From Vitreoscilla filiformis (GTDB lineage: Bacteria > Pseudomonadota > Gammaproteobacteria > Burkholderiales > Burkholderiaceae_C), in the NCBI RefSeq assembly GCF_002222655.1, contig NZ_CP022423.1, positions 2,852,001-2,916,000 on the forward strand: a DNA stretch of 64,000 nucleotides, in the 5' to 3' direction. The first letter of the stretch is position 1. Each line of letters starts with the position of its first letter. This document shows, piece after piece, positions 51,283 through 61,562 of the stretch. The notes below the pieces were generated by a model. It was not told the origin of the DNA. It did no database searches and saw nothing but the letters and a program-made list of their open reading frames with translations. Made by a program: the position numbers and the translations under genes.

Positions 51283-51359
51283 CTGCCCGTAGCTCAACTG
51301 GATAGAGCAGCTGCCTTCTAAGCAGCAGGTCGGGGGTTCGAGTCCCTCCGGGCAGGCCA
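51283..51359 (+). tRNA. tRNA-Arg (anticodon TCT)
   Basis: A 77-nt tRNA with acceptor arms CTGCCCG and CGGGCAG, anticodon stem GCTGC/GCAGC around CTTCTAA giving anticodon TCT, a T-arm GGGTTCGAGTCCC and an encoded CCA. The molybdenum/nif block starts directly downstream. Confidence 0.96.
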
Positions 51360-51557: not shown

Positions 51558-51573
51558 TGGCACACGGTATGCT
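51558..51573 (+). promoter_or_regulatory. Candidate sigma-54 promoter of the globin-like gene
   Basis: TGGCAC-ACGGT-ATGCT matches the -24/-12 consensus TGGCAC-N5-TTGCW at ten of eleven defined positions, with exactly ten bases between GG and GC. The predicted start lies around 51584, within the ModE box. No TGT-N10-ACA NifA site is found upstream in the remaining 130 bases, so the activator is not shown. Confidence 0.6.
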
Positions 51574-51578
51574 TCAAT

Positions 51579-51604
51579 TCGCTATATTGTTTCATATATA
51601 ACGA
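51579..51604. promoter_or_regulatory. ModE operator upstream of the globin-like gene
   Basis: TCGCTATAT and ATATAACGA form a near-perfect inverted repeat over 26 bases that fits the ModE consensus (TCGnTATATA-N6-TATATAnCGA) with one mismatch per half. It covers the predicted sigma-54 start site and lies 13 bases before the globin-like start codon. modE itself is encoded tail-to-tail next to that gene. Mo-loaded ModE bound here should block transcription. Confidence 0.85.
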
Positions 51605-51617
51605 AAGGAGCCTGTCC

Positions 51618-52208
51618 ATGGTCAATCCTGCAACGCCCACTCACCTACCCAGCGCTTGCGCCCGCGCATGTGTAGCCACCCTGCGCTGGCCGGTGCGCCA
51701 AATCGAACACACCGAGCGCTCCCCGTCACCGCCGATGGTGGCGATGCCAGCCGTCCCTGCCCCACCGCACCGCCTGCTGGCTCTGTGTGGGGAGGTGGGC
51801 CTGCGCCGCCTGGTGCATCGTCACATGACGCGCCTGCGCCTCACCCCGCTGTTGGCCTCGCACGATGGCCCCGAGTGCTTCGCCTGCGTCACCGAGCGGG
51901 TGGGCGATTTCGTCATCGAATCCTGCGGCGGGCCGCTGTACTGGAGCCAACATCACAGCCCTCATCGAGGGGTGAGCGCCGGAGCCGGCTGGCCGGTGTT
52001 GCTGGACGAGATTGGCCGGGAAATCTGGCTGGTGCAGCTCTGGCACAGCTTGGACGACGTGGGTTTGCCCGATGCGCTGCGCGCCGATGTGTGGCGCTGG
52101 GCCGAGCCGCTGTCGCTGCATTTGTTGGTGCCGCGCGCACGCCAAACCGGCGTGCGCCGCTACCCATTCGAGCGGGTGCGCAGTTGGTTCACCACCCCCA
52201 GCGCGTGA
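51618..52208 (+). CDS. Degenerate truncated-globin-like protein, ModE-controlled
   Basis: A 196-residue product with a strong GAAAGGAG site seven bases before the ATG. Residues ~51-172 resemble group II/III truncated haemoglobins: LRRLVHRHM (helix B), CGGPLYWSQHH (E region, residues 103-113), WPVLLDEIGREIWLVQL (G helix). However, the expected proximal His two residues before that Pro is Gly124, and the helix-B Phe-Tyr is His69-Met70, so usual haem ligation is doubtful. Six cysteines occur, including C14-x3-C18 and C87-x2-C90. The N-terminus is Pro/Ala-rich. It sits behind a ModE box and a sigma-54-type promoter, next to modE. The fold assignment is from remembered motifs, not a search. Confidence 0.6.
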   Translation: MVNPATPTHLPSACARACVATLRWPVRQIEHTERSPSPPMVAMPAVPAPPHRLLALCGEVGLRRLVHRHMTRLRLTPLLASHDGPECFACVTERVGDFVIESCGGPLYWSQHHSPHRGVSAGAGWPVLLDEIGREIWLVQLWHSLDDVGLPDALRADVWRWAEPLSLHLLVPRARQTGVRRYPFERVRSWFTTPSA

Positions 52209-52214
52209 AGCCCT

Positions 52215-53069
52215 TCACCCCACCACCGCAAACACCACACTCGACGCCTTGAAAAACGCCGTTGCCCGTTGGCCCAAGTGCAGCCCCAGGCGCTGCACGC
52301 TGTCATCGGTGATGGCGGCAACGATCTGACGGTGCCCGCCGCCGTCCAGTTGCAGCACCACCTCGGCGCCCACCGGCCCGCGCAGCAGACGCACCACCGT
52401 GCCCGGCAAACGGTTGCGCGCCGACAGCCGCGCCGCATCGTCCAGCGTCAGCATCACGCTGGAGGATTTCACCCACACCTGCACTTCGGCTTCCGGCTGC
52501 AAACGCAGGCGCTGCACCGACTCCTGGGTCAACACCCCCACCACGTCCACCCCGGGGGCGATTTCCACCTGCACCTGGGCTTCCACCCCGCTGGCGCGCA
52601 CCTCGCGCACCCGACCGGCAAATTGGTTGCGTGCGCTGGACTGCATGCTCCACCTCCTCAACAAGCGCTGAAACGCCGCCACATCCTGCGGCTCCGCTGA
52701 GTCGCTGCCGGGGCTGGCGCTCAGCCAGGGCTGCACGCGCGCCAGGGCGGCTTGGTGTTCCGCCTCCAACGCCCGGTAAAACGCAATGAGCCGCCGCGCG
52801 TAAGGCGTCAACGTGGTGCCACCGCCGCGCGCGCCGCCGCTGCTGCGCACCACCAGCGGCTGGGCGGCCAGGTTGTTCATGTCATCCACCGCTTCCCAGG
52901 CGGCCTTGTAGCCCCAGGCCACCGCCTTGGCGGCGCGGGCAATCGAGCCGTGGCGTTCGATGGCTTCCAGCAACGCCACACGCGGTGCGCCCATGAAGGC
53001 CCCCAGCGGCGTGTCCAACTGCACATGGGCGTGCCAAGCCCCCAAAGGAGGCGCGTCATGGCCGTTCAT
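52215..53069 (-). CDS. modE: Molybdate-responsive regulator ModE
   Basis: A 284-residue regulator with an N-terminal winged HTH (about residues 30-105; GSIARAAKAV, GYKAAWEAVDDMNN) and two C-terminal Mop domains, each beginning with an SARN-x2-x-G-x-V motif (NQFAGRV; NRLPGTV) that binds molybdate. Mo-ModE represses uptake genes and modulates Mo-enzyme genes. The ATG at 53069 begins MNGHDAPPL; longer frames start within mosB or without homology. Tail-to-tail with the globin-like gene, divergent from mosB with 70 bp between. Confidence 0.92.
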   Translation of the reverse strand: MNGHDAPPLGAWHAHVQLDTPLGAFMGAPRVALLEAIERHGSIARAAKAVAWGYKAAWEAVDDMNNLAAQPLVVRSSGGARGGGTTLTPYARRLIAFYRALEAEHQAALARVQPWLSASPGSDSAEPQDVAAFQRLLRRWSMQSSARNQFAGRVREVRASGVEAQVQVEIAPGVDVVGVLTQESVQRLRLQPEAEVQVWVKSSSVMLTLDDAARLSARNRLPGTVVRLLRGPVGAEVVLQLDGGGHRQIVAAITDDSVQRLGLHLGQRATAFFKASSVVFAVVG

Positions 53070-53139: not shown

Positions 53140-53952
53140 ATGGCCTCGACTTCTTCGGCGTTGGAAACGCTCCTCATGCAACGGTCGCTGACCGATGCGC
53201 AATTGCTGGCGGCGGCTGAAACCGCTGCCGACTTCCGCATCCTGCCCCAGGCCACGGTGATCAAGATCGGCGGGCAAAGTGTCATCGACCGAGGCCGCGC
53301 GGCGGTGTTCCCGCTGGTCGATGAAATCGTGGCGGCACGCCAGCAGCACAAGCTGTTGATCGGCACCGGCGCGGGCACCCGAGCGCGGCACCTCTATTCC
53401 ATCGCGGCGGGGCTGAATCTGCCGGCCGGTGTGCTGGCCCAGCTCGGCGCGTCGGTGGCGGATCAAAACGCCGCCATGCTCGGCCAGTTGTTGGCGCAGC
53501 ACGGCATTTCTTCGGTGGAAGGGGCGGCGCTGTCGGCGGTGCCGCTGTTCTTGGAACAGGTCAACGCCGTGGTGTTCAGCGGCATGCCACCCTACAAACT
53601 GTGGATGCGCCCCTCGGCCGACAGCGTGATCCCGCCCTACCGCACCGACGCGGGCTGTTTCCTCATGGCCGAACAGTTCGGCTGCAAAGCCATGCTGTAC
53701 GTGAAGGACGAAAACGGCCTTTACACCGGCAACCCCAAAACCGACCCACACGCCACTTTCATCCCGAAAATTTCTGTGGACGAGATGAAAGCCCAGGGCC
53801 TGCAAGACTCGATCTTGGAATTCCCGGTGCTGGACTTGCTGCAATCCGCCCGCCATGTGCGCGAGGTGCAAGTCATCAACGGCTTGGTGCCCGGCAACCT
53901 GACCCGCGCACTCGCTGGCGAACACGTCGGCACGATCATCACCGCCGCTTGA
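53140..53952 (+). CDS. mosB: Molybdenum storage protein, beta subunit
   Basis: A 270-residue amino-acid-kinase-fold protein, the length of the Azotobacter vinelandii beta subunit. Recognised segments are LMQRSLTD, KIGGQSVIDRG, the ATP-loop GTGAGTRARHLYS, GMPPYKLWMRP and the C-terminal NGLVPGNLTRALAGEHVGT. With MosA it forms an (alpha-beta)3 cage that packs up to about a hundred Mo atoms as polyoxomolybdate using ATP. GAAAGGA precedes the ATG. Only 70 bp separate it from the divergent modE. Confidence 0.93.
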   Translation: MASTSSALETLLMQRSLTDAQLLAAAETAADFRILPQATVIKIGGQSVIDRGRAAVFPLVDEIVAARQQHKLLIGTGAGTRARHLYSIAAGLNLPAGVLAQLGASVADQNAAMLGQLLAQHGISSVEGAALSAVPLFLEQVNAVVFSGMPPYKLWMRPSADSVIPPYRTDAGCFLMAEQFGCKAMLYVKDENGLYTGNPKTDPHATFIPKISVDEMKAQGLQDSILEFPVLDLLQSARHVREVQVINGLVPGNLTRALAGEHVGTIITAA

Positions 53953-53964
53953 GAGGACGACCCC

Positions 53965-54786
53965 ATGAGCGCTACCCACACCATCAAACACGTCGCCTCC
54001 GCCCTGGCCCGCCAAACCCTGCAAGACAGTCGCCTCACCCACCCGGTGGCGGCGGTGCGCCCGATTCGCCTGCTGCCGTGGCTGCATGTGGTCAAGGTTG
54101 GCGGCCGCTTCATGGATCGCGGGGCGGAAGCCATCCTGCCGCTGGTCGATGAAATCCGCCGCATCCTGCCGGAGCACCGTTTGCTCATCCTCACCGGCGC
54201 GGGCATTCGCGCGCGCCACCTGTACAGCGTGGGGTTGGATTTGGGCTTGCCGGTCGGGTCGCTGGCGCCGCTGGCGGCCAGCGAGGCCGGGCAAAACGGC
54301 CACATCTTGGCGGCGCTGCTGGCGCCTGAAGGCGTGTCCTACATCGAGCATCCGACGATTGCCAATCAGCTCGCCCTGCACCTGAGCGCCACGCGCGCCG
54401 TGGTCGGCAGCGCTTTCCCGCCGTACCACCACCACGAGTTTCCCGGCTCGCGCCTGCCGCACCACCGCGCCGACACGGGCGCCTTCCTCGTCGCCGACGC
54501 CTTGGGCGCCGCCAGCCTGACCATCGTCGAAGACGTGGATGGCGTCTACACCGCCGACCCACAGGCGAACGACGCGGCGCAGCTTCTGCCGCAAATCAGC
54601 GCCGCCGAGCTGCTGGCCCAAGACGGCCCGCTGCCGGTGGATCGCGCCATGCTGGAGGTGATGGCCCATGCGCGCCACCTGCAACAGGTGCAAGTGGTGA
54701 ACGGCCTGGTGCCGGGGCGCCTGACCGCAGCGCTGCGCGGCGAGCACGTCGGCACGCGGATTGGCACGGGCGCCACGCCGCGTTGA
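53965..54786 (+). CDS. mosA: Molybdenum storage protein, alpha subunit
   Basis: A 273-residue paralogue of mosB. Diagnostic segments are [49 protein letters not shown] (split here: [13 protein letters not shown] and [20 protein letters not shown]), and [18 protein letters not shown] with its His cluster that contacts the molybdate clusters. GAGAGGA lies in the 12-bp spacer after mosB, so the genes are one operon. Convergent with modD, 10 bp apart. Confidence 0.93.
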
Positions 54787-54796
54787 GCTTCGCCGC

Positions 54797-55642
54797 TCAG
54801 GCATGGATGCGCACCTGCACATCCGCCGGCGGAGCGAAATACGGGGCGGAACTCACCAAAAAATCCGCCCCGGCGCGGGCGTAGGCCACGGCGTTGGCCA
54901 GCGTCACGCCGCCGGCGGGGGCCAAACGCACATCGCTCAGGCCAGCGGTTTGAAGCTGGGCGTTCAAGGCTGCCAACGCGGCGGGGCTGAAGCGTTCCAG
55001 TTGCAGCACGTCCACCACGCCGGCGTGAGCCAGGGCGAGGGCCTCGTCGGCGCTGCCCACTTCGGCCACCAAGCGCTTTTCGGGTTGCGCGGCGCGCAGG
55101 GCGGCCAAGCGCGCCAGCCGCTCGCCTTCGGGCAACAAAGCGCGGTGCTCGGGGAACACCAACAGGCTTTCTGACAAACCCAGCCGGTGCATCACCCCAC
55201 CGCCGGCCACCACGGCGTGCGCCGTCCAGCGCCGGGTGCCGGGGAAGTTTTTGCGTGTACACGCCAGCGGGGTGTGGAACCCCTCGGCCCGCAAGGCCTG
55301 CACGATGGCCGCTGTGGCCGTGGCGATGCCCGAACAGGCTTCGGTGAGGGTTTGCGCGGTTTTCCAGGCCAGCAGCACCCCGGCGGCGGGGCCGTGGCCG
55401 CGCAGCAGCAGCGCCCCAGACTCCACAGGCTGGCCGCTGCGGTGCTGGAACGTCACCGTTGCGCCGCACAGCGTGAACAGGCGCGCGGCGGCTTCTAAGC
55501 CTGCGGGCACCATCGCAGCCCGGGCGTGGAAGGTGACGTGCGCGGGCGTGTCGTGCAGGCCCAGGCCGGCGGTGGTGAGGTCACCGTGCGGGGCGTCTTC
55601 GCGCAGCAAGGCGAGCAGGTCGGTGTCGTCGGTGGCGTGCAT
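54797..55642 (-). CDS. modD: ModD, quinolinate-phosphoribosyltransferase-like molybdenum-locus protein
   Basis: A 281-residue NadC-family protein. CTRKNFPGTR with substrate-binding Arg/Lys, AVVAGGGVMHRLGLSE and VEVGSADEALALAHAGVVDVLQL-type barrel motifs (here AEVGSADEALALAH) are present. ModD genes recur at the end of mod operons in phototrophs and diazotrophs; the reaction is not established. It follows modC by 9 bp. Confidence 0.85.
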   Translation of the reverse strand: MHATDDTDLLALLREDAPHGDLTTAGLGLHDTPAHVTFHARAAMVPAGLEAAARLFTLCGATVTFQHRSGQPVESGALLLRGHGPAAGVLLAWKTAQTLTEACSGIATATAAIVQALRAEGFHTPLACTRKNFPGTRRWTAHAVVAGGGVMHRLGLSESLLVFPEHRALLPEGERLARLAALRAAQPEKRLVAEVGSADEALALAHAGVVDVLQLERFSPAALAALNAQLQTAGLSDVRLAPAGGVTLANAVAYARAGADFLVSSAPYFAPPADVQVRIHA

Positions 55643-55651
55643 GACGGGGTT

Positions 55652-56446
55652 TCAAGCGGTGGGCGCGGGCACGCCCAGCAAGGCGCGCAGCGCTTGGCTG
55701 CGCGGGGAAGCGTCCGGCGGCGGCACCTGCGGGCAGAGCTGTTGCCAGACATGGTCGCGGTGCGTGCCGCTGCGCAAATCCACCTCGCGTTGCACCTGGC
55801 CCTGGTCGATCACGGCGACATGGTCGGCCAGCGCCAGCACGTCTTCGATGTCGTGCGTGATCATCAGCATGGGGATGTTCCAGCGTTCGCGCACCGCCTT
55901 CAGCTCTTGGCGCAGGCTGTGGCGCAACAGCGGGTTGAGTGCGGCAAACGGCTCGTCCAGCAGCAACACCGCCGGTTCACACGCCAGCGCCCGCGCCAAG
56001 GCCACACGCTGGCGTTGCCCGCCCGAGAGCGCCGACGGTTTGGCCTCGGCCAAGGCGTCCAGCCCGAAGCTGGCCAGCAGCGTGTGTACGCGCTGGGCGT
56101 CGGCGGGTTTCAGGCGCGGCTGGCGCCAGCTCGTCAACCCAAACCCGACGTTTTGGCGCACGCTCAGGTGCGGGAACAGCGCGTAGTCCTGAAACAAATA
56201 ACCCACGCCGCGCTGCTGTGCTGGCAGATGCACACCCAGCGCCGCGTCAAACAAGGTGCGCCCGGCGATGCGAATGTGCCCGGCCTGCGGGCGCAACAAC
56301 CCCGCCACCGCTTGCAGCGTCAGCGATTTGCCCGCCCCAGACGGGCCATACAGCGCCACCACCGGCGCCTCACTGCGCACGCGCACCGCCAGATCGAAAC
56401 GCCGCGAAGCGTCGCGCACACTCAGCCGCACATCCAGATCGAACAT
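55652..56446 (-). CDS. modC: Molybdate ABC transporter ATP-binding protein, short form
   Basis: A 264-residue ABC ATPase with Walker A GPSGAGKS, signature LSGGQRQR, Walker B VLLLDEPFAAL and the Q-loop FQDYALFPHL. E. coli ModC is about 350 residues because of a C-terminal Mop domain; here the protein ends soon after the ATPase core (RSQALRALLGVPAP), so that molybdate-sensing extension is missing. Start MFDLDVRLSV chosen over an upstream ATG for homology. Overlaps nothing; modA stops 22 bp upstream. Confidence 0.92.
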   Translation of the reverse strand: MFDLDVRLSVRDASRRFDLAVRVRSEAPVVALYGPSGAGKSLTLQAVAGLLRPQAGHIRIAGRTLFDAALGVHLPAQQRGVGYLFQDYALFPHLSVRQNVGFGLTSWRQPRLKPADAQRVHTLLASFGLDALAEAKPSALSGGQRQRVALARALACEPAVLLLDEPFAALNPLLRHSLRQELKAVRERWNIPMLMITHDIEDVLALADHVAVIDQGQVQREVDLRSGTHRDHVWQQLCPQVPPPDASPRSQALRALLGVPAPTA

Positions 56447-56468
56447 GGGAGCCCTTTCGTGGCAGGGT

Positions 56469-57257
56469 TCAGGGTTGGCCAAAGCCGGCTTTGCTGAGCG
56501 CGTCTTGGGCTGGGGCGCTGAGGAGGTAAGCGAGGAAATCCACCGCTGCGGCTTTTTGTTTGCTGTCGGCAGTGACGGCAGCCGGGTAGCGCACCGGGTC
56601 GTGGCCGTCCACGCGCTGGATCACTTTGACTTTGTCGGCCATCACGGCGGCGTCGGTGGCGTAGACGAAACCGGCTTCCACCTCGCCACGCGCCACGTAG
56701 TCCAGTACCTGGCGCACGCTGTCGGCGTAAACGAACTTCGGCTCCAGCGCGCCCCAAAGTTTGGCGGCGTTGAGCGCCTGTTGGGTGTAGCGCCCCACCG
56801 GCACCGTGGCCAGCTTGCCGATGGCGATGCGCTTGACGGCCTCCACCTTCAACCCCGTGAGCCCTGCGACGGGCACCGCCCCGCTGCTGGGCACGATCAA
56901 CACCACTTGGTTGCTGGCAATGTCGCGCCGCGTGGTGGCGTCCAACAGTTTTTGGCCGATGCCGCGTGCCATGGTTTCTTCGTCGGCGCTGATGAACACA
57001 TCCACCGGCGCACCTTGGGCGATTTGCTGGATGAGCACGCCCGAGGCGGCGAAGTTGTATTGCAGCTTCACGCCGGGGTGGCGGGCTTCGTACTGCGCGC
57101 CCAGCGTCTTCAGCACGTTGGTGAGGCTGGCGGCAGCGGAGACGGTGAGCGTCTGGGCCGGGGTTTGCGCCCAAGCTGGGGCAGCGGCCAGCGCCAGGGC
57201 GGCGAACACGCCCAGGCTGGCGCGACGGGTGGCACGGGTGAAAACAGCCAAAGTCAT
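56469..57257 (-). CDS. modA: Molybdate ABC transporter periplasmic binding protein
   Basis: A 262-residue binding protein with a signal peptide ending APAWAQ, then LTVSAAASLTNVLKTLG, where the Ser residues bind the oxyanion, GAPVDVFISADEETM and AKTGF-like YVARGEVEAGFVYATDA. It captures molybdate (and possibly tungstate) in the periplasm. Start MTLAVFTRA gives a standard signal peptide. Confidence 0.93.
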   Translation of the reverse strand: MTLAVFTRATRRASLGVFAALALAAAPAWAQTPAQTLTVSAAASLTNVLKTLGAQYEARHPGVKLQYNFAASGVLIQQIAQGAPVDVFISADEETMARGIGQKLLDATTRRDIASNQVVLIVPSSGAVPVAGLTGLKVEAVKRIAIGKLATVPVGRYTQQALNAAKLWGALEPKFVYADSVRQVLDYVARGEVEAGFVYATDAAVMADKVKVIQRVDGHDPVRYPAAVTADSKQKAAAVDFLAYLLSAPAQDALSKAGFGQP

Positions 57258-57296
57258 TTCAGTTTCTCCCAACAACAGATCACAAAAGAAGCGCGT

Positions 57297-57986
57297 TCAG
57301 GCCGGGCGCGGGTTGAACCAGCGGTTCGACACCAGCAACACCGACACCGACAACACCGAAGTCACCAGCACCAGCAGCATTGCCACGTCGTCCTCACCGG
57401 CTTGCACGGCGTCGTAAATCGCCATCGACAAGGTCTGGGTCTTGCCGGGGATGGAGCCGGCCACCATGAGCGAGGCGCCGAATTCACCCATCGCCCGCGC
57501 AAAGGCCAGCAGCGTGCCGGCGACGATGCCGGGCGCGGCCAGCGGCAACGTCACCCGCACGAACACCGACCAGGGCGACTGGCGCAGCGTGCGCGCCGCC
57601 GCTTCCAGCGAGCGATCCACATTCGCAAACGCCGCGCTGGCGGACTTGAGCACCAGCGGCAGCGCCACCACCGTGGAGGCCACCACGGCGCCGTGCCAGG
57701 AAAAGACGATGCTGTAGTCGAAGTGCTCGCGCAGCCAAGCGCCCAGCGGGCTGCGCCGCCCGGCGGCCAGCAAGATGCCGTAACCGATGACGGTGGGCGG
57801 CAGCACCAGCGGCAACATGCAGACCGCCTCCAGCACGCTGCGCCCCGGCAAGCGGGTGCGCGCCACCACCCAGCCCAGCGCTACGCCAAACAGCCAAGCC
57901 AGCGCCGTGGCCACCCCGGCGACTTTGAGTGAGAGCCACAGCGGGGCCCAGTCCGTGGCGTTCAAGGTGTGCAGCAGGTCAGACAT
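57297..57986 (-). CDS. modB: Molybdate ABC transporter permease
   Basis: A 229-residue permease with about five to six membrane helices and the coupling motif EAARTLRQSPWSVFVRVTLPLAAPG that docks on ModC, plus ALPLVLKSASAAF. The order modB-modA-modC-modD differs from the usual modABC. A ModE box ends one base before this ATG, so no Shine-Dalgarno sequence fits; the mRNA may be leaderless or read through from nifQ. Confidence 0.92.
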   Translation of the reverse strand: MSDLLHTLNATDWAPLWLSLKVAGVATALAWLFGVALGWVVARTRLPGRSVLEAVCMLPLVLPPTVIGYGILLAAGRRSPLGAWLREHFDYSIVFSWHGAVVASTVVALPLVLKSASAAFANVDRSLEAAARTLRQSPWSVFVRVTLPLAAPGIVAGTLLAFARAMGEFGASLMVAGSIPGKTQTLSMAIYDAVQAGEDDVAMLLVLVTSVLSVSVLLVSNRWFNPRPA

Positions 57987-57987
57987 A

Positions 57988-58013
57988 ACGCTGTATTTTT
58001 ATCTATATAGCGA
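57988..58013. promoter_or_regulatory. ModE operator abutting the modB start codon
   Basis: On the minus strand TCGCTATATA (perfect half) and AATACAGCGT (7 of 9 defined positions) are separated by GATAAA, fitting the ModE consensus. The box ends one base before the modB ATG. Mo-loaded ModE should repress modBACD here, as in other bacteria. Confidence 0.8.
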
Positions 58014-58077: not shown

Positions 58078-58548
58078 TCAGTTCATGGGGCGTTGGGGGG
58101 CGGGATGCACAGTGCTGGGCAGCGGCGTCAACCACGCCACAGCCGGGGTGGGGCGTGCGGGCTCGGGGGTTTCAAAACACTGCACGTAGTCCGTACACAC
58201 CTCGCAACTGGGGGACTTGCAAATCAACACCTCCGCCGCTTCGCACAACTGGCGGTAGAAGAACTTCTTCCACTTCATGTCGCCAGTGTTCTTGGCCACG
58301 AGGCTGGGGAACCAGTGGCGCAGCAGGGCGTTCAACTGCTGGCGGTTTTCGAACAGCAGGTCTTGCCAGAGGTGGTTGTCGCCCAGGCAGGCCACGGCCA
58401 CGGTGTGGGCCACGGCGCGCGCGGCCTCGGGGCTGCCGGCGCTGGGCTCGAAGTGGTGCATGAGCAGGGCGCTCACGTCCTCCACTTCGTCGCCGCGCGC
58501 GGCCTGGTGCTGGGTGAGCAAGTCGGTGCGCAGCGGCGGCGGGTGCAT
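58078..58548 (-). CDS. nifQ: Nitrogen fixation protein NifQ
   Basis: A 156-residue protein with the diagnostic cysteine motif C110-x4-C115-x2-C118-x5-C124 near the C-terminus, which binds a Mo-Fe-S cluster. NifQ donates molybdenum to NifH/NifEN during FeMo-cofactor synthesis, linking Mo uptake to nitrogenase. The Pro-rich tail after the motif is an extension. Last nif gene of the nifN string, followed after 91 bp by modB. Confidence 0.92.
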   Translation of the reverse strand: MHPPPLRTDLLTQHQAARGDEVEDVSALLMHHFEPSAGSPEAARAVAHTVAVACLGDNHLWQDLLFENRQQLNALLRHWFPSLVAKNTGDMKWKKFFYRQLCEAAEVLICKSPSCEVCTDYVQCFETPEPARPTPAVAWLTPLPSTVHPAPQRPMN

Positions 58549-58561
58549 GGTGCGGCCCCGG

Positions 58562-58867
58562 TCAGACTTCCGCTGCCCCGTGCGTGTAGCACTTCTTCGG
58601 GCAAATTTTGGAGCAGGCGGTGCAGCCGATGCACAGCTCGCCGTGGGCGATTTTCATCACCTTCTTTTCGTATTCCTCGTCGTCGTCGCCGTCTTCATCG
58701 ACGTGGACGTATTCGCCTTCGTCGTTCAAGCCGACGAGTTCCAGCACGCCACGCGGGCAAACTTTGAAGCAACGACCACAGCCGATGCACTTGTCTTCGT
58801 CAAGGGCTTGAACAAACTGCGGCGTCCAAGCCGCGCCGCTGGGCAGGGTGACACTGAAGGTGCTCAT
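58562..58867 (-). CDS. fdxB: nif-associated ferredoxin III (2[4Fe-4S])
   Basis: A 101-residue ferredoxin with two clusters: C27-x2-C30-x2-C33-x3-C37 and C79-x2-C82-x2-C85-x3-C89. An acidic linker ([10 protein letters not shown]) joins the halves. This type occurs in nif operons near nifX/DUF269 and nifQ and supplies electrons for cofactor assembly or nitrogenase reductase. It lies 13 bp before nifQ. Confidence 0.9.
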
Positions 58868-60062: not shown

Positions 60063-61514
60063 TCAGGCACTGGCCTCGGCCAGCGGGTGCGGGTCGGCAG
60101 GTTTGGCGCGTGGGATGTGGGCCGGCAGATGCGCCACGGCGGGCAGCTTTTCCATCACCTGGCCTTGCGCAGCGGCCAGCGAGAGCGCCGGCAGCGGCCA
60201 ATCGTTCGGGCCGTGGTGCGGCAGGTGTTCCATGAACACATTGCCGACTTCGTAGACAAAATTGCGCGTGCCCCGGTAGCCAACGTAGCAACGGTGCGAG
60301 TTGCCGATGCGGTCAAAAATCGGCAGCCCGATCCGAAACAGCGGCTTGCCCAGGCGCTCGGCGGCTTGGCGACCGTGGGCGTGGGTCATCAGCAAATCGC
60401 AATCGGCGGCCTTGGCGGCTTGCTCAAAATCCTCCAAATCGCCGATCACCACTTCGTTGGCGGGCATCTGGGCCAGCAGCGGGCTTTGGGTGGTGGTGAT
60501 GCACACCGCCAGCTCGGCGCCCATCTCCACCAGCACGTTGCCGGCTGACCAGAGCAAATCCGGCTCGGCGCCCAACGCCACGCGTTTGTTGCCGAAGTAA
60601 AAATGGCCGTCCAGCATCGCGTCCACCAACTGGCTGCGCTGGCGGCGCCACTTGGGTGGCACCGGGCGGCCACTCAGGGCGGCCAGGCGCATGATGAAAG
60701 CGTCCGTGGCTTTGAGGCCGCTCAGGCGGTCGAACAGCTCGAAGGGCACGCCACAGCGGGTGCGCAGCGCTTGGGCGGCGGGGCGCATTTGCTCGCCGAT
60801 GGCCACGCACAATTCCGCCGAACCGAGCTGCTTGAGCACCGCCAACGACGTGCCGCCCAGGGTGGTGCCGAGCCAGTCGTCGGGAATGTGGCCATCGAGC
60901 GAGCCGGACACATCCGGCGCAATCCAGCATTCCAGCCCGAAGGATTCGACGATCTCGCGCACTTCCTCCAAATCACCCGGCGTCAGGTGCCAGCCCGGCA
61001 GCACGGCCACGCGGCCTTTCACGGTTGGCTGGCCCGGCTCCGGCAGGGTGTTCATCAGCGCGGTGACGGCGGTGGCCCAGCCATCTTGGAACGCGCCGAC
61101 GTAATCGGGCGTCGAGGCGTAGACGATGGCGGTGTCGGCCAGCTCGGGGTGTTTTTTGCGCGCCAGGGTGAGGTAGGCGTCCACATCGTCGCCCTTGGTT
61201 TCCGTCAGGCCGGTGGAACAAATGGCGATGACCTGCGGCTTGGCGCGCTGGCGAATGTTGAGCAGGGCTTTTTCGAGGTTGTCGTAGCCACCAAGGATGG
61301 TGGTGACCTCGTTCATCGCCGTGGTTTGCAGCGGAATGGCTTCCTTGAAGTGCCGCACCAGCAGCACCAACCCGAAGGAAGTGCAGCCTTGCGAGCCGTG
61401 CATCACCGGCATGCAGCTCTGCAACCCCATGAAGGCATACGACGCGCCCAACGGGCTGCTCATCTTCAGCGGGTTGACGGCGCAGGCTTTTCGGCTTTCG
61501 CTAACGTGGGCCAT
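60063..61514 (-). CDS. nifN: NifN, subunit of the FeMo-cofactor scaffold
   Basis: A 483-residue NifN, beta-like partner of NifE in the scaffold on which FeMo-cofactor is built. The N-terminal cysteines (C11, C34, C44 in KACAVNPLKMSSPLGA, LQSCMPVMHGSQGCTSFG) hold the interfacial cluster, and TGLTETKGDD, GWHLTPGD and VMTHAHGR-type LLMTHAHGRQAAERLGKP are typical. nifE, normally just upstream, is absent from the window. GGAG precedes the ATG, and a sigma-54-type promoter sits 33 bases upstream. Confidence 0.94.
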   Translation of the reverse strand: MAHVSESRKACAVNPLKMSSPLGASYAFMGLQSCMPVMHGSQGCTSFGLVLLVRHFKEAIPLQTTAMNEVTTILGGYDNLEKALLNIRQRAKPQVIAICSTGLTETKGDDVDAYLTLARKKHPELADTAIVYASTPDYVGAFQDGWATAVTALMNTLPEPGQPTVKGRVAVLPGWHLTPGDLEEVREIVESFGLECWIAPDVSGSLDGHIPDDWLGTTLGGTSLAVLKQLGSAELCVAIGEQMRPAAQALRTRCGVPFELFDRLSGLKATDAFIMRLAALSGRPVPPKWRRQRSQLVDAMLDGHFYFGNKRVALGAEPDLLWSAGNVLVEMGAELAVCITTTQSPLLAQMPANEVVIGDLEDFEQAAKAADCDLLMTHAHGRQAAERLGKPLFRIGLPIFDRIGNSHRCYVGYRGTRNFVYEVGNVFMEHLPHHGPNDWPLPALSLAAAQGQVMEKLPAVAHLPAHIPRAKPADPHPLAEASA

Positions 61515-61546
61515 GGCAGGACTCCGGGTGGGGTTGCCGAAGTCAA

Positions 61547-61562
61547 TGCACAAACAATGCCA
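61547..61562 (-). promoter_or_regulatory. Candidate sigma-54 promoter of the nifN operon
   Basis: On the minus strand TGGCAT-TGTTT-GTGCA fits TGGCAC-N5-TTGCW at nine of eleven positions with the invariant GG and GC ten bases apart. It lies 33 bases before the nifN ATG, the usual distance. It would make the nifN-nifX-nifQ string independent of an upstream nifE or nifHDK promoter. Confidence 0.7.

Follow-up and report, generated by a model that had tools for sequence, protein, structure and literature searches.

A globin-fold protein without the canonical haem ligand among molybdenum and nitrogenase genes of Vitreoscilla filiformis

The window analysed here, the whole 64,000-nucleotide stretch from contig NZ_CP022423.1 of Vitreoscilla filiformis, contains a gene, here called GLB, that encodes a globin-fold protein with glycine at the position of the proximal haem histidine (Table 1). 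An initial annotation, made from the letters alone, had placed this feature at 51558 to 52208; the gene is present, but its coding region begins with the ATG at 51618, and 51558 marks the start of its promoter. Immediately upstream of the gene, as annotated, lie a sigma-54-type promoter, a ModE-type box spanning the expected start of transcription and a ribosome binding site. GLB is undescribed as far as the open-access literature was searched.

GLB has a 2-on-2 globin fold like that of the Hell's gate globin IV (HGbIV) group of truncated globins, and HGbIV (PDB 4nk1/4nk2) was its closest solved structure by both sequence and fold. Aquifex thermoglobin, first considered as the identity of 4nk1, was dropped, as both comparisons gave HGbIV. 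Residues 31-193 of an AlphaFold2 (AF2) model aligned with residues 30-193 of 4nk2, including an extra C-terminal helix at 184-191. An N-terminal extension is present, with residues 1-30 unaligned to 4nk2 and residues 1-11 and 22-32 at a predicted local distance difference test score (pLDDT) below 50; confidence was also low at 116-123, just N-terminal of the former ligand position. Profile searches of the window protein returned no Pfam match, PF01152 included, and no NCBIfam family. In the alignment of GLB relatives, 22 of 30 rows, His-bearing rows included, matched PF01152 at an E of 1 or less.

Alignment with 4nk1 and four more His-bearing relatives placed Gly124 in the proximal (F8) histidine column, as annotated. 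Relatives were collected by tblastn-type searches and by scanning genome contigs with two peptide patterns from GLB rows, a scan biased to close relatives rather than a random sample of diazotrophs. Among the 29 rows of the GLB clade (support 84/83, long branches), the proximal position is Gly in 27 and Lys in 2. All six annotated cysteines (14, 18, 57, 87, 90 and 103, with the C14-x3-C18 and Cys87-x2-Cys90 spacings) are nearly always kept, as are the B9 histidine (27/29), Trp137 (29/29) and His143 (27/29). One further relative, G598, lacks part of the E-F stretch and sits on a very long branch; it was omitted from both residue groups. Phe-Tyr in helix B is a feature of ordinary truncated globins, and the annotation had described its replacement by His-Met. 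His69-Met70 is indeed present at B9-B10 (His-Met in 26/29 rows, His-Leu in 1, Gln-Leu in 2), but the nearest relatives have His-His here, not Phe-Tyr. Because of this, and because the B9 histidine is kept, the annotated absence of haem ligands holds for the canonical proximal ligand only. GLB is a globin without that ligand and, from these residues, probably without haem; it is a variant of truncated globins and, as our best guess, forms a haem-less branch of the HGbIV-like group.

The ModE-type box upstream of GLB is the strongest such site in the window. A first matrix came from 20 distinct sites in 23 other loci, the window excluded, and contained three misregistered training sites; a second, symmetrised matrix used 15 distinct sites with these three removed. 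Built from other genomes only, the matrix ranked the GLB box first in the window and a box before modB second, with symmetrised scores of 23.0 and 21.0 against 14.1 for the third best site. In the whole 3.79-Mb genome, CGNTATRT-N8-AYATANCG matched exactly once (GLB), once with one mismatch (modB) and at four further places with two mismatches, which leaves the GLB and modB boxes as the sole sites with fewer than two mismatches; the reversed control pattern, at up to two mismatches, gave three matches per strand.

Similar boxes precede GLB in other genomes. In an early scan of 29 upstream regions with the arms CGTTATAT and 40 mononucleotide shuffles per locus, 16 loci scored above all their shuffles, 6 tied with the best one and 7 fell short of it (L026, L033, L040, L041, L042, L043 and L050); in the last group the matrix later located the box at another place or register. 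Outside the training set, the symmetrised matrix found promoter sites scoring 15.4-20.3 in these seven loci and in L003, L048 and L049, and one of 30.7 in the G598 locus (L057). In the three Ideonella loci (L026, L033 and L042), small reading frames stand between the sigma-54/ModE-type promoter and GLB (L026:8319-8907), so that the box precedes them, and a second, higher-scoring box lies about where modB starts. GLB thus carries the palindrome typical of the ModE regulon and is predicted to be under ModE control.

The sigma-54-type promoter matches 10 of 11 consensus letters and is the sole zero-mismatch match to TGGCAC-N5-WTGCW in the window. With one mismatch the pattern occurred 6 times against 8.0 expected, and by itself it is therefore unconvincing. 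Pattern counts in the window are not significant; the recurring feature is the position of the element relative to the ModE-type box. We surveyed 30 loci (the window, 26 genome-contig loci without L052, two plasmid loci and L057), and in 24 of them a -24/-12 element that had both GG and GC and matched 8 or more of the 11 letters stood 3-21 nt before the box, in 16 of those 24 at exactly 13 nt. Scores of 8-9/11, as seen in other loci, do not exceed what single-locus shuffles can give. The remaining six were L029 (no GC), two Herbaspirillum loci with a box and a sigma-54 score of 6/11 at the usual distance, L049 and L003 (7/11), and L057, where by eye a sigma-54-like TGGCATGTGAATTGCA ends 2 nt before the box.

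The annotation had also considered nitrogen control probable. The sigma-54-type promoter and the nif-linked occurrence of GLB, described below, speak for this, but TGT-N10-ACA is absent from the 400 nt upstream of the ATG, with the sole nearby match inside the gene, so that NifA control is unsupported by an enhancer. In other loci this motif overlaps the ModE-type box or lies 3' of it, with the exception of -217 in the two Herbaspirillum loci. Judged from promoter type and gene context, nitrogen control of GLB remains probable.

Table 1. Features at and around GLB (window positions).
Feature	Position	Strand	Remarks
tRNA-Arg	51283-51359		upstream of GLB
sigma-54-type -24/-12 promoter	51558-51573	+	TGGCACACGGTATGCT; 10/11 consensus letters
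ModE-type box	51580-51603	strand-neutral	CGCTATAT-N8-ATATAACG; 24-bp near-palindrome over expected transcription start
ribosome binding site	51604-51610	+	AAAGGAG; read from sequence
GLB	51618-52208	+	196-aa globin-fold protein; Gly124 at proximal His position, six conserved Cys, His69-Met70 at B9-B10
modE	52215-53063	-	HTH_1 and TOBE domains; convergent with and adjacent to GLB
molybdenum storage protein, beta subunit type	53140-53952	+	2ogx_B, E 3.3e-147
molybdenum storage protein, alpha subunit type	53965-54786	+	2ogx_A, E 3.5e-138
modD	54797-55642	-	TIGR01334 over cut-off
modC	55652-56482	-	TIGR02142 best, below its cut-off
modA	56469-57275	-	TIGR01256 over cut-off
modB	57297-57986	-	first gene of transporter operon; TIGR02141 over cut-off
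ModE-type box before modB	57989-58012	strand-neutral	second best in genome; sigma-54-like stretch upstream (by eye)
nifQ	58078-58548	-	PF04891
nif-specific ferredoxin III (fdxB type)	58562-58867	-	TIGR02936

The molybdenum (Mo) genes around GLB include those that the annotation had named, modE and the Mo-storage genes, the latter in the order beta then alpha by their matches to the two MoSto subunits in PDB. However, the storage genes are neighbours of GLB in this genome only, and none was found within up to 9 kb per side in the 27 relative loci. Past fdxB the minus strand continues with a NifX-associated gene, nifX and nifN. The nif genes of this genome are scattered over three distant regions (nifD at G000:C1:629519, a nifE-like match at G000:C1:3025604 and nifN at 60063-61553 of the window). 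A truncated globin with a normal proximal histidine (G000:C1:632532-632873; L054/L059) is divergent from a gene read as nifH, and weak globin matches occur at like places near nifD in G420, G559 and G683.

The initial annotation's reading depended on homologues lying near mod or nif loci, and such linkage recurred. With the duplicate loci L014, L015 and L016 removed before counting, genome contigs yielded 27 loci, found in Paraburkholderia, Burkholderia, Cupriavidus, Ideonella, Ramlibacter, Herbaspirillum, Curvibacter, Variovorax, Pseudacidovorax and two metagenome-assembled genomes (MAGs); a tblastn search of plasmids matched two further Paraburkholderia records. The nifD model matched in all 27 genomes, over cut-off in 26. 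Within up to 9 kb per side and with identity thresholds applied, the neighbours were nifQ and fdxB (23 loci each), any mod gene (23), a luciferase-like (LLM) oxidoreductase (21, of which L048 and L049 have a truncated copy), modE (19), modB (17), modA and modC (15 each), DUF2325 (6) and modD (3). The fullest gene order was nifE-nifN-nifX-..-fdxB-nifQ-GLB-(DUF2325)-LLM-modBAC-modE-like. The recurrent partners of GLB are nifQ, modABC, modE and the LLM oxidoreductase, whose relative is absent from the V. filiformis genome at E 1e-10. In six of the 27 loci and in G598, the DUF2325-like protein (L002:9330-9896, below the Pfam cut-off) comes after GLB.

We counted as family only strong matches, with E below 1e-20, excluding weaker places (9 in the survey of the order, 8 in that of the family and 4 in another search). 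Among 299 genomes of the family to which V. filiformis belongs, five had a strong match (G000, its own genome; G420; G566; G582; and the intermediate G598), and all five belong to the 22 genomes in which nifD scored over cut-off (p 1.4e-6; p 1.9e-5 when G000 is excluded). Among 399 genomes of the order, two had one (G000 and G196), each with nifD. In the family survey, nifD was missing in four of the 12 genomes with a match at E 1e-3 or better.

GLB is mostly under purifying selection, with Nei-Gojobori ratios of nonsynonymous to synonymous substitution (dN/dS) of 0.06-0.30 in 14 of 17 chosen pairs. Two others gave 0.35 (L003/L049) and 0.46 (L034/L038), both at dS under 0.02, and L048/L049 gave 0.97 at dS 0.045. 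In three related Paraburkholderia loci, L003 (L003:11953-12585), L048 and L049, the GLB-LLM pair erodes. Each has a truncated LLM without any modABC seen in its vicinity; L003 and L049 have changes at Gly124, Cys87, the B9 histidine and GGP alike, and in L048 Cys87 and some of GGP are missing. The L003 strain was isolated from a root nodule and carries nod genes next to the locus. On the small basis of these three related strains, it looks as if the GLB module were important for acquiring Mo in the free-living state.

Relatives that keep the proximal histidine stood beside Mo-uptake-type or nif genes in all three loci read. In G196 (L056), which has nifD, the globin lies between a binding protein and its permease, with TonB-type receptors (by reading) and modE (41%); the binding protein matched 4pag best (E 5.7e-67) and is also related to HI_1472 (3psa, E 3.6e-20), which we take to be MolA. 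In a Zoogloeaceae MAG (L052) it lies between NifM-like and NifV-like frames near NifZ-, NifU- and NifS-like ones (names by reading). G857 (L067), in which a nifD model search found no match, has two globins in tandem, accompanied by binding proteins and by TonB-type receptors akin to those of G196, together with an LLM relative (40%), modD and part of a ModE-like protein, its TOBE half. The matrix found no ModE-type box near the globins of the Zoogloeaceae MAG (best 9.4) or G857 (best 8.3); that of G196 was weak (9.2 at the promoter), where by eye a palindrome can be made out behind a sigma-54-like site. The intermediate G598 carries GLB-DUF2325-modABC-modE on a nif-bearing contig, where GLB, modA and the gene for a TonB-type receptor (box at L057:19426-19449) each have a ModE-type box in front. 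The receptors of G598, G196 and G857 are possible Mo-complex receptors. With His-keeping relatives beside Mo-uptake-type genes, the association with Mo uptake seems to predate loss of the haem ligand.

We tentatively propose, as possible rather than probable, that GLB is a globin rich in cysteines and devoid of haem, binding Mo or molybdate under Mo scarcity and delivering Mo towards NifQ. The lost haem ligand, the conserved cysteines, the Mo-type switch and the Mo and nitrogenase neighbours together make it our best guess that GLB handles Mo rather than oxygen. GLB would be made during nitrogen fixation under Mo scarcity, through its sigma-54-type promoter and the ModE-type box over the start. 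As the proximal ligand was lost and conserved cysteines were gained in the nif branch, the vacated pocket with its B9 histidine, together with the cysteines, may have come to bind molybdate or a reduced or thio-form of Mo in the cytosol. The available text of PMC4476040 describes in HGbIV a large polar distal site with His70(B9) and His71(B10) placed to bind a phosphate ion; such an oxyanion-friendly pocket in the globin family and the adjoining molybdate uptake genes suggest molybdate or an Mo complex as ligand. Mo arriving through ModABC, and in V. filiformis perhaps also from the storage protein, might then be handed to NifQ for cofactor assembly, and reduction or thio-ligation of Mo(VI) on the way to the [Mo-Fe3-S4] group of NifQ would suit the added thiols. 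A wider form of this proposal, which we hold to be rather improbable, makes the GLB family the protein handing Mo to NifQ in one diazotroph branch, with the haem pocket turned into a Mo or oxyanion site, initially in haem-bearing globins of Mo-uptake operons and afterwards, haem-less, in nif operons.

Several observations weigh against the proposal. The B10 histidine, half of the phosphate motif, is replaced by Met or Leu. Co-location with the nifQ gene is no proof of direct contact, and in V. filiformis nifQ lies 6 kb from GLB on the opposite strand. No mod gene was found in L027, L048, L049 and L052 within the stretch examined. A strong match in 5 of 22 nifD-positive genomes means that GLB is no general nitrogenase factor; one of these five, G598, has His in the proximal column. 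The His-bearing relatives in G857, without nifD, indicate that the older role was not nitrogenase-specific.

It may be that GLB, as a haem-less globin, acts as a protein-protein adaptor or thiol switch signalling the status of Mo or redox to ModE, to NifQ or to the LLM oxidoreductase, which we regard as somewhat unlikely. The available text of PMC4476040 gives a precedent in RsbR, which has lost haem with its His(F8) changed to Ala, and the conservation of both cysteine pairs and the modE linkage in 19 of 27 loci fit such a role; however, GLB has no fused output domain, and the V. filiformis genome lacks the LLM relative at the threshold given above. Haem binding through a non-canonical ligand (B9 His69, Met70, a cysteine or His143), in an O2-, NO- or redox-responsive protein that guards or times the delivery of Mo to nitrogenase, is in our view unlikely. 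Conservation of the B9 histidine, Trp137 and His143 is consistent with it, as is the unusual Lys-His coordination that the same text describes in the Methylacidiphilum globin HGbRL. Against this stand the near-universal glycine at the proximal position, the lack of any invariant histidine column in the 30-row alignment, the low model confidence just before the former ligand and the three PF01152 globins already in the genome, one of them divergent from nifH.

The six conserved cysteines, and the position of GLB after fdxB-nifQ in many loci, might instead indicate an Fe-S cluster or Zn and a role as carrier of Fe-S or of electrons that serves NifQ or the assembly of nitrogenase. This we think quite unlikely, given that GLB has no Pfam or NCBIfam family, that the cysteine spacing matches no motif known to us and that 3 of 29 rows have lost Cys87. 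That GLB is a decaying globin gene hitch-hiking in an operon is highly improbable. The altered residues in L003, L048 and L049, the dN/dS of 0.97 for L048/L049 and the truncated LLM there agree with decay, but it is disfavoured outside these three loci by the low dN/dS of most pairs and by V. filiformis and Ideonella, where GLB is kept outside the usual operon behind a promoter of like type. The annotated observation is confirmed, and its interpretation, a Mo-sensitive and probably nitrogen-controlled globin-like protein, is partly supported.

Globins are generally taken as haem proteins; haem-less ones are, to our knowledge, rare, and we know of none tied to molybdenum. A globin without the canonical haem ligand and tied to molybdenum would offer a handle on an open step of nitrogenase assembly. 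GLB is a small protein that retains the pocket histidine, has conserved cysteines, stands behind a promoter gated by Mo and probably by nitrogen, and lies close to nifQ and mod genes in many diazotrophs; it makes the question of how Mo reaches NifQ testable. The available text of PMC11605450 treats the route of Mo to the NifQ cluster as an open question.

Among known systems, GLB is most like HGbIV of Methylacidiphilum infernorum, with which it shares the fold, a similar length (193 aa in HGbIV), the B9 histidine, Cys103 and Trp137. HGbIV differs in being a haem protein with a proximal histidine and His-His at B9-B10 and without Cys57, 87 and 90, whereas GLB has Gly124, His-Met and the extra cysteines; the genome encoding HGbIV carries nif clusters, according to the available part of PMC2474590. 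Compared with group II truncated haemoglobins (PF01152), GLB lacks the proximal histidine, has His-Met for the helix-B Phe-Tyr and has no Pfam match. The N-terminal globin domain of Bacillus subtilis RsbR likewise has a globin fold without the F8 histidine (PMC4476040); unlike GLB, it sits in the stressosome with a STAS domain attached, and the available text on RsbR makes no link to Mo. The modABC operons of the ModE regulon resemble GLB in their ModE-type box over the start, as does the modB gene of V. filiformis itself; there the box controls a transporter, whereas in GLB it precedes the gene for a globin-fold protein.
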